Shown here one piece after another: positions 979-41,795 of a DNA stretch of 64,000 bases. Source of the DNA: Croceibacterium salegens. GTDB taxonomy: Bacteria > Pseudomonadota > Alphaproteobacteria > Sphingomonadales > Sphingomonadaceae. The notes below the pieces were generated by a model. That model saw nothing but the letters and a program-made list of their open reading frames with translations, was not told the DNA's origin and did no database searches. The position numbers and the translations under genes were made by a program. The stretch lies in the NCBI RefSeq assembly GCF_009827435.1, contig NZ_WTYM01000046.1:1-64000 (forward strand), in the 5' to 3' direction. Position 1 is the first letter of the stretch, and each line of letters begins with the position of its first letter.

Positions 979-1057
979 TTTTTTCCGGCCGCGCCATGTG
1001 AGACCCTGCAAGTCAAAGCATAACCCGATGGAAATACGACATTTTTTCCAACTTCGA

Positions 1058-1088
1058 CAGGGTCACAGGTGAGAACTTCGAGACCCTG
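1058..1088. repeat. 31-bp palindromic repeat, copy A
   Basis: A 31-bp unit with inverted ends CAGGGTC and GACCCTG. It matches a second copy at 56480-56510 in 28 of 31 positions over the full length. Here it overlaps the 3' end of the minus-strand methyltransferase gene and supplies its stop codon and last few codons. An 11-bp sequence, GAGACCCTGCA, at its right edge (1080-1090) is repeated exactly 80 bp upstream at 1000-1010. Confidence 0.7.
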
Positions 1089-2220
1089 CATAGCCCGCCA
1101 CGCGCCGGATCACGTAGGTCTCGTCGTCGAACCATAGCGCGCCGTGTTCGCGAAGCACGTCGCGGGTTGCGTCGAGGTAGGCCGAACCGGTCATCGCCTC
1201 GGCCAGCCTGTCGTCCTCGATCTGCGCGACATAGGTCGCGGCGTTCCACGCGGCGAGCAGGGTCGAGGTGCCGATGAGGGTGTCGTTGCTGTCGATCTCG
1301 TCGGGCAGCGTGTGCATGGAATAGCGCAGGCGCGATTCCTCGTCGGGCAGCGGCTCGAAGGCGAACCGGGCGGCCTCGTCGCCGAGCGCCGCCTCGGTCG
1401 CGGCGAGGAGTTCGTGGCGCGAGGTGGTGAACGGGTCGGCTTCGGGCCAGACCTCGCGCACGATCTCCAGTCCCGGGTCGCCGCCGGCGGAGTGGACCCC
1501 AAGCATTCGCCCGCCCGGCCCGAGCGCGCGGGCCAGCGGGGCGAGCACCCGTCCGGCCTTGAACTTGACGTCGGCGGCAAGGCGGAACGGCTGGCTCGCG
1601 AGCACCAGGTCGAAGTCGGCGCGCGGGCTTCCGGGACGCGGGATCACCGCGTCGAGGATGTAGCGGCAGTCGTGGCGGTAGAGCACGATCACGGTCGGCG
1701 TTTCGGGCAGCAGCACGCCCGTCTTCTCGCTGACCCGCGTCCTCCAGTTGACGGCAAGAAACGGCTGCAGGTCGTTGATCTGCTGTTCGAATTCGGCGGC
1801 GGTCGATCCGGTGAGCGCAACCTCCTTCCACACCACCGGCGGCTGCGCACCGTCCTTGCGGTGCACCAGCCATGGGGCATCGGCGTAAGGCAGGTTGGTC
1901 AGCGCGAGGACCGTTTCGGGATGCTCGAAGAAGCGGTCGGGCATCTTGTCGAGCGTCAGCCGGATGTCCTCGAGGCTGATTTCCTTGGCCGCAATGTAGA
2001 ACGGCAGGCGGTCGAACTTGCGATGCATCGAACGCAGCACGCGCGCCAGCACGGTTCCGTCGCCGACCCCGGCATCGAAGAACCGCAAGGCCGGCGGGCG
2101 CGGGACCAGCTTGTCGAGTTCCTTTGCCAGGCGCTGCGCCACCTCCCACTTCTCCGAGCAGGTGTTGACGAACATCAGGTACTTCTGGCGGTTGTCGTAG
2201 AAGCGGAAATTGGATTTCAC
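1063..2220 (-). CDS. Class I SAM-dependent methyltransferase, putative
   Basis: 385 aa. The N-terminal half carries a Rossmann motif I (FFDAGVGDG, about residues 48-55) preceded by an NTCSEKWEVAQRLAKEL helix, as in class I SAM methyltransferases; an acidic/aliphatic motif and LTNLPYAD resembling an NPPY-type motif follow. The C-terminal half (GPGGRMLGVHSAGGD) looks like the end of the methyltransferase fold. The GTG start at 2220 is chosen because a strong GGGGGGAG ribosome site lies 9 bases upstream. The last residues (about GSRSSHL) and the stop are encoded inside the palindromic repeat, so the native C-terminus may have been replaced. Substrate unknown. Confidence 0.7.
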   Translation of the reverse strand: MKSNFRFYDNRQKYLMFVNTCSEKWEVAQRLAKELDKLVPRPPALRFFDAGVGDGTVLARVLRSMHRKFDRLPFYIAAKEISLEDIRLTLDKMPDRFFEHPETVLALTNLPYADAPWLVHRKDGAQPPVVWKEVALTGSTAAEFEQQINDLQPFLAVNWRTRVSEKTGVLLPETPTVIVLYRHDCRYILDAVIPRPGSPRADFDLVLASQPFRLAADVKFKAGRVLAPLARALGPGGRMLGVHSAGGDPGLEIVREVWPEADPFTTSRHELLAATEAALGDEAARFAFEPLPDEESRLRYSMHTLPDEIDSNDTLIGTSTLLAAWNAATYVAQIEDDRLAEAMTGSAYLDATRDVLREHGALWFDDETYVIRRVAGYAGSRSSHL

Positions 2221-39960: not shown

Positions 39961-40432
39961 CCGCGCAGCGCGCGCCAACGGGCAGCGCCCTCCGCTCCGA
40001 ACAAGTCATCGAGATCGTCGCGGCTGTAGAATATCTCGTAGGCGGCGGCGTGCTTGGGCAGGTCGAACCACGGCTGCTTGCTGCGCGTGAAGATGTGGAC
40101 CCGCGGCGGACAGGCGTCGGGGTCTTCGAGCGTGCCGACGCGGACGAACGCCGCCTTCTCGCCCATCCCGCCGTAATGGCTCCACAGTGCGACCTTGCAG
40201 GCCAGGCAGCGGACAATCTTCTGCCCTTTGCCGCTGTTCGAAGGCGTATCGATCGTTTCCGGCGCGCCCGCCGTTACCCCGACGTGAGAGGTTTCGACGA
40301 GCCCGTTGAGCACGAAGGCGCTGCCTGTCTCGCGCTGGCAATCGCGGCAATGGCAGCAGTGCACGGCGAAGGGACGCTGCCCAGGATGTAACGGACACTG
40401 CCGCAGGCACACTGGCCCGCGAGCTCAGCCAT
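39957..40432 (-). pseudogene. GFA-family protein, apparent one-base frameshift
   Basis: The start MAELAGQCACGSVRYILGSVP (CxCG zinc motif) is in one frame from ATG 40432; the rest AVHCCHCRDCQRETGSAFVLNG (CCHCxxC motif) to VGTLEDPD is in another. The join falls in a GGG run at 40371-40373; one extra G there would restore a continuous S-(hydroxymethyl)glutathione-GFA-type protein of about 158 aa. A sequencing error is possible. The start overlaps the end of the GST gene upstream by 8 bp. Confidence 0.7.
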
Positions 40433-41057
40433 TGCCCTGCATCCTCGCGATCTCGCCCATGTCGATCGCCTTGGCTTCCTTGTAGGCCGGACGCTGTTGG
40501 ACCCGACCGGCGTAGGCAAGGAAGCTGTCGCGCTCCGGGAAGGACTTGAACTGCAACCCCCAGTCGACATGGCTGCCGACATAGACGTCGGCCATCGTGA
40601 ACCGGTCGCCGCAGACGTAGTCGTGGGTCGAGAGCCAGCCGTCGAGCGCGTCCATCGTCCGTTCGTAGTTGCCGAAGCCGGCGGACATTTCCCGCTCGGG
40701 CGTCATCTCCCACCCGAACATCTTCGACGTCGCCGCCTGTTCGAGCGGACCGGCGGCAAAGAAGAACCAGCGGAAATAGTCGGCCGCCTCGTGCTCGCTG
40801 GGAGTGAGCTCTGCCCGCGGGTGGGTCAGCGCGAGGTAGTGGCACACCGCCGCCGACTCGCTCACGACGTGATCGTGGCTGCCGTGGTGATGGATGATCG
40901 TGGGCAGCTTGCCCATCGGGTTGGCGTCGAGCAGGGCCTGCGGCTTATTGCCCCATTCGACCAGTACGGGCTCGTAATCAGCCCCAACCTCATGCAGCGC
41001 CCAGCGCGCGATCTGCGCCCGGCTCATCGGATTATAGAAGAACGTGAAGGCGGCCAT
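40425..41057 (-). CDS. Glutathione S-transferase family protein (B)
   Basis: 210 aa. FTFFYNPMSRAQIARWALHEVGADYEPVLVEW in the thioredoxin half, GKLPTIIHHHGSHDHVVSESAAVCHYLAL with the ESAA glutathione-binding motif, then GDRFTMADVYVGSHVDWGL (the N-capping box of helix 6). Catalytic residue most likely Ser in NPMSRA. Confidence 0.9.
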   Translation of the reverse strand: MAAFTFFYNPMSRAQIARWALHEVGADYEPVLVEWGNKPQALLDANPMGKLPTIIHHHGSHDHVVSESAAVCHYLALTHPRAELTPSEHEAADYFRWFFFAAGPLEQAATSKMFGWEMTPEREMSAGFGNYERTMDALDGWLSTHDYVCGDRFTMADVYVGSHVDWGLQFKSFPERDSFLAYAGRVQQRPAYKEAKAIDMGEIARMQGNG

Positions 41058-41152
41058 CGGTGATTCTCCCGCGACTCAGGGCTGGAACATTACGGGAACG
41101 TTCCAGCCGGGTCAATCGCGGAAGGGCACGCTTGTGCCCCGAGGGACGTGGA

Positions 41153-41380
41153 TCAGCCGATCATCCGGTTCATCATGTCGAGTGCGCGCTTGATGCTCAG
41201 ATAGGGCACCGCGCACTTGGCGTGATAGATGCCGTTGAGCTTCGTGAGCTTCTCGTCACCGGTCTGGAAATCGATGTGCTCGGTCGAATGATGCGGCTCG
41301 ATCAGTCGTTGGCAGCTCACGCAGACGTCGGAATACGGCTCTCCGCGTCCCCCATCGTTCGACTTGATATCTATAAACAT
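41153..41380 (-). CDS. Small Cys/His protein, paralog 1
   Basis: 75 aa starting MFIDIKSND. CxxC in DVCVSCQRLIEP and HxxxC in GIYHAKCAVP are arranged like a treble-clef zinc site; IDF and a basic KRALDMMNRM tail follow. A good AGGGGGG site lies upstream of the ATG. Paralogous over its length with the next gene. No known family recognised. Confidence 0.65.
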   Translation of the reverse strand: MFIDIKSNDGGRGEPYSDVCVSCQRLIEPHHSTEHIDFQTGDEKLTKLNGIYHAKCAVPYLSIKRALDMMNRMIG

Positions 41381-41412
41381 TTGGCGACCCCCCTAAGGTC
41401 CATTTCGTTATT

Positions 41413-41646
41413 CTATGCTCCCGGTCGGCGCATGCGCAGCATCTCGTACGATCGCTTCACCCGCATCACCGGTTCGGCGCAGGTCTCGTGATAGGTCCCG
41501 CCCAGCTTCTTCAGTGCCGGATTTGGAGAGGAGAAATCGATCGTCCGCGAGCGCTGCCCGACCAGGATTTCCTGCTTGCAGCTACGGCAGAATGGCCAGT
41601 TCGGCTCGCCGCCCGGTGCACCCGGAACGGATGTGTCTATGAACAT
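41413..41646 (-). CDS. Small Cys/His protein, paralog 2
   Basis: 77 aa starting MFIDTSVPG. Shares with paralog 1: GGEP, CxxC (PFCRSCKQEI), an invariant IDF, GxYHxxC (GGTYHETCAEP) and KRxxxM. GAAGGG lies 8 bases upstream of the ATG at 41646; an in-frame TTG at 41652 is less likely. The pair must come from duplication. Possibly zinc-binding; inference. Confidence 0.65.
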   Translation of the reverse strand: MFIDTSVPGAPGGEPNWPFCRSCKQEILVGQRSRTIDFSSPNPALKKLGGTYHETCAEPVMRVKRSYEMLRMRRPGA

Positions 41647-41795
41647 ATGCAACCCTTCGCTTGGCCCGGGTTCACCCGGGTCTCCGCTAAGTTGAGTAAG
41701 CCAAAGTGCATTTATGTAAGATTAGCGACAAGGGCGCGCGCCCGATTATCCCACGTCGAGAACGGAGCGCAGTCTGACCCGGAACGGCTGCCCCG

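Follow-up and report, generated by a model that had tools for sequence, protein, structure and literature searches.

Two small genes for cysteine- and histidine-containing proteins lie in tandem within the window, i.e., the stretch of 64,000 nucleotides of Croceibacterium salegens contig NZ_WTYM01000046.1 analyzed here, amid a cluster of detoxification genes. Do they belong to a protein family, which fold might their products adopt, and do they serve the genes around them? A sequence-only reading had proposed a new family with a treble-clef zinc fold, perhaps regulatory for the detox operon. We favor, with a probability of roughly 0.55, the explanation that the pair encodes zinc-finger microproteins, predicted to bind one zinc each, that act as stand-alone accessory adaptors or modulators and not as dedicated regulators of adjacent genes. 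Zinc binding and fold are predictions, and the adaptor role is one that we infer. The features referred to below are the following.

41153..41380, minus strand: gene of small protein 1 (75 aa), a putative one-zinc treble-clef microprotein; open reading frame, 37% identity to protein 2, profile E 3.5e-35
41312..41323, minus strand: CxSC putative zinc knuckle of protein 1 (C20, C23), invariant in 14 of 14 members
41213..41224, minus strand: HxxC of protein 1 (H53, C56), invariant, located where the predicted C-terminal helix (modeled as residues 54-74) begins
41413..41646, minus strand: gene of small protein 2 (77 aa), paralogue of protein 1; open reading frame, profile E 1.5e-31
41578..41589, minus strand: CxSC putative zinc knuckle of protein 2 (C20, C23), invariant
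41479..41490, minus strand: HxxC of protein 2 (H53, C56), invariant
41647..41795, minus strand: intergenic region 5' of the protein 2 gene, presumed to contain the promoter of the pair

Both open reading frames were recovered at these positions, separated by a spacer of 32 nt, and their products align over 70 residues (BLASTP, E 4e-17). MFID, GEP, CxSC, IDF, GxYHxxCAxP and KRxxxM are common to the two proteins, and the tandem pair with common motifs, as read from the letters, is thus confirmed. The ribosome sites, TTAGGGGGG and GCGAAGGG, had been called clear; they are acceptable but not canonical in the window pair, and an AAGGAG site is present in the genes of several homologues. A TTG at 41652, two codons upstream of the start of the protein 2 gene, is an alternative start that would yield 79 aa. 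The gap between this gene and the upstream GST gene measures 149 nt, and no match to a sigma-70 consensus was found in 41647..41795. With values of 0.56 and 0.62, the GC content of the small genes is below that of the window (0.66), and codon-position GC follows the usual order in both. In the gene tree, both window proteins are poorly placed on long branches, so that the tree does not separate a local duplication from two acquisitions.

The family is composed of at least 14 proteins in 13 species, including the tandem pair. The first independent homologue (E 5e-8) emerged when 296 genomes of the order were searched with a single sequence, and profile searches extended the set to at least 12 further species of the host's bacterial family, with one copy per species. 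ChpT/CheA synteny and lineage counts point to Sphingomonadaceae as that family. Family profiles that had both window proteins among their members match each of the two at E about 1e-29 or better. Judged by sequence similarity, which is far above chance, the family is real. Carriers amount to at least 8 of the 397 genomes sampled from the host's family, the window genome counted; in four genera, profile searches found at least 4 of 14, 3 of 6, 2 of 5, and 3 of 250 genomes to be carriers. In a class-wide sample of 385 genomes, the window genome is the sole carrier among the matches listed, and no homologue from the other four members of its genus appears among the matches listed. Searches of plasmids, phages and IMG/VR gave no match, the curated models of Pfam, NCBIfam, PHROGs and PADLOC gave no meaningful one, and no description of the family was found in the literature. 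This family of 74-77-aa microproteins is rare, unnamed, and restricted to one bacterial lineage.

Several candidates were discarded during curation. Weak matches in the order and family samples (L008-L015 and L104-L106, E 1e-4 to 0.01) were taken to be spurious: L008, L104 and L106 lie in antisense or unrelated long frames, and the remaining ones were dismissed by score. The weak matches in the host's own genome (L003, L004) were likewise considered spurious. A hit in Polynucleobacter (L017) is a chance peptide within a transglutaminase-like protein and not a homologue.

All 14 members share M1, D4, C20, S22, C23, I27, F38 and, further on, a G, Y, H, C, A and P, and in all of them the putative ligands follow the pattern C-x2-C-x28-30-H-x2-C, with a spacing of 28, 29 or 30. 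Within clades, dN/dS ranges roughly from 0.07 to 0.5; dN is well under dS in all clades, and substitutions are concentrated at third codon positions. The family is under purifying selection. With 14 members in 13 species, this selection and no curated model, the proposal of a new small-protein family is supported.

Two AlphaFold2 models, built from different query members, agree on a disordered N-terminus, a knuckle at C20/C23, strands at 33-36 and about 50-54, and a long helix from about 54 to 72-74, at whose start H53 and C56 are located. Mean pLDDT is 76-79, with block means of 80-94 across residues 21-70, and pTM reaches only 0.57-0.58, with 10-14 sequences. The predicted order of knuckle, strand, strand and helix is that of a treble clef. 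Structural searches gave no significant match (best E of 0.34 in Foldseek, best Z of 3.6 in VIA); the weak ones comprise LIM, RING, PHD, FYVE and PARP fingers as well as small ribosomal proteins, many of them treble clefs. Taken together, the order of structural elements, the conservation of the ligands and these weak neighbors support the earlier notion of a treble-clef zinc fold as a prediction, more precisely that of a minimal one-zinc treble clef.

That so small a protein has just one Cys3His site, and that its distribution is patchy and accessory, could also point to storage, delivery or redox buffering of zinc or another metal instead of an interaction module. Each chain offers one site only, however, no metal-transport genes were recognized among the neighbors, and the residues D4, S22, I27, F38, G, Y, A and P are conserved without being ligands. 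Such strong conservation outside the ligands argues for a maintained fold and surface rather than for metal storage, which we regard as distinctly unlikely.

The genomic context is what had suggested a regulator of the detox operon. Both small genes are codirectional and lie between two GST genes, and the surrounding cluster contains GFA, 3-dmu-9_3-mt (glyoxalase-like), glyoxalase, DUF1428 and further GST genes, along with a divergent HxlR regulator gene. A local regulator or cofactor of this cluster, e.g., a thiol or electrophile sensor modulating the neighboring enzymes, would fit this arrangement. In four congeners, however, the orthologous GST pair occurs without the two small genes; their slot is taken by an AHSA1-like gene or is simply left as a gap. 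(The AHSA1/SRPBCC-type gene between the GST orthologues was located at about 1000-1446, plus strand, in L080, and by eye in L081.) Homologues are moreover found in other contexts. In three species, one lies between ChpT and CheA; in one genus, it adjoins genes for a dehydrogenase E1 and for a PAS/histidine kinase (three of the four loci were read fully); in three species, it is convergent with a chemotaxis receptor gene; and further neighbors are tgt and a sulfatase gene. Finally, the downstream GST gene has its own conserved upstream element, GTTC-N7-GTTC. The GST clusters without the pair, the chemotaxis, dehydrogenase, tRNA-modification and sulfatase surroundings, and this separate element together make a local detox regulator highly improbable. 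From the unrelated neighborhoods and the GST clusters devoid of the pair, we conclude that the genes are accessory and independent of any single pathway.

Signaling genes occur near homologues in three genera, which is suggestive as a raw count. A chemotaxis role deduced from the position between ChpT and CheA was set aside: the gene is present in at least 3 of 250 sampled genomes of the genus, and the ChpT-CheA interval, mostly 27-150 nt, generally lacks it.

No LexA, CtrA or EcfG-like box was found upstream of any member. Some elements at these loci deserve mention in their own right. A perfect GTTC-N7-GTTC, the form of the alphaproteobacterial LexA/SOS box, is located at 41085-41099 (minus strand), upstream of the GST gene 40425-41057 (minus strand); it lies 42 nt 5' of the start codon and overlaps a 12-nt inverted repeat. 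Of 25 orthologous GST loci, the window counted, 9 have it at -37 to -42, and in several of the others the intergenic space is short. Across the whole window, the motif is not more frequent than by chance. The element suggests candidate SOS-type control of this GST gene, and a regulator other than LexA is possible. Just upstream of CheA in L034, L047 and L048, the stretch from the small gene to cheA contains a conserved element TAACGCCCTTTTAACC, which in reverse complement is similar to a CtrA site (TTAA-N7-TTAG); 5' of the small gene, a palindrome resembling AACCCCTAGGGGTT is conserved. In four species of one genus (L027, L032, L045, L046), a conserved GTTAAGC...ACTCA precedes the small gene by about 80-100 nt and is possibly the promoter or an operator. 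A conserved 87-aa protein (MDFDEQLRRYFGT...) is encoded convergently with the small gene (L027:8085-8348, minus strand, and orthologues) and has no Pfam match at 1e-5.

Among known fingers, the PARP type (PARP1 Zn1/Zn2, DNA ligase III) is the closest in ligand geometry. The family resembles it in the C-x2-C-x28-30-H-x2-C spacing, the Ile four residues past the second Cys, the Tyr ahead of the His ligand, and the predicted treble-clef-like order. It differs in lacking the conserved YAK segment, the Trp preceding Tyr-His and the hydrophobic residue following the last Cys, in being mostly acidic or neutral, and in consisting of stand-alone bacterial microproteins. The profile comparison used PARP/ligase III sequences, of which PARP1 Zn1 was confirmed against its PDB copy. 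Against this three-sequence profile, hhalign gave a probability of 72 and a score of 30.3, whereas 100 column shuffles that kept the ligands and the preceding Tyr scored up to 29.5. Thus, nearly all of the PARP signal comes from the ligand motif, and we take the resemblance as shared ligand geometry, not as membership; homology beyond the ligands is borderline. Pfam zf-PARP (PF00645) matched none of 10 members with an E limit of 5 and neither window protein with a limit of 10; in these searches, the HMMER filters discard most matches above about 0.1.

These comparisons bear on whether the proteins are nucleic-acid-binding fingers akin to those of PARP and ligase III, recognizing DNA ends, nicks or RNA as small accessory factors of transcription or repair. 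The identical spacing, the hhalign result, PARP-1 Zn2 among the weak fold matches and the basic protein 2 (pI 9.6, net charge +5) speak for it; the shuffle scores, the absent zf-PARP match and the charge of most members speak against it. Net charge ranges from -6 to +5 and is neutral or negative in 12 of 14 members, which argues against generic nucleic-acid binding, although protein 2, which is basic, might bind nucleic acids. We consider this function unlikely. Very unlikely, in our estimate, is a broader variant in which free-standing PARP-spaced fingers constitute an independent single-domain module that senses DNA breaks or partners beside signaling or stress genes that vary by species.

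Since most members are neutral or acidic, we prefer protein binding. As stand-alone accessory microproteins, both proteins would fold around one zinc held by C20 and C23 of the knuckle and by H53 and C56, the latter two contributed by the first turn of the C-terminal helix. This would give a minimal treble clef with ligands spaced as in PARP fingers, ahead of which a short disordered tail (MFxD...GEP) would extend. The finger would be structural and would display the long helix, together with the conserved tail at the N-terminus, to a partner protein, and by way of this display each protein may act as an adaptor or modulator. If zinc binding is true, the family would add a minimal finger from bacteria whose ligands are spaced as in the PARP fingers of eukaryotes. 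With one putative zinc, fewer than 80 residues and natural tandem paralogues, it is experimentally easy. The adjoining detox genes, from which a function had been guessed, are no guide to the role of the small proteins.

The N-terminal half of LIM domains offers a second comparison. It has a CxxC...HxxC treble clef, as predicted here, and LIM chains are among the weak fold matches. LIM domains, however, bind two zincs, with C-x2-C-x16-23-H-x2-C followed by a second finger, whereas the family has one site only and a spacing of 28-30. The hhalign probability against LIM sequences is 2.75, and the profile comparison thus favors PARP-type over LIM fingers (72 versus 2.75).

With respect to organization, the nearest parallel is found in the one-domain zinc-finger µ-proteins of Haloferax, which likewise stand alone and are each predicted to have a single zinc finger. 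They are shorter than the proteins described here (<70 aa versus 74-77 aa), originate from an archaeon and have paired C(P)xCG motifs as their defining trait (PMC10716476, PMC11241148). Their deletion can lead to phenotypes in biofilm formation, swarming/motility and stress (PMC6562870). Stand-alone zinc-finger microproteins can therefore matter to their hosts.
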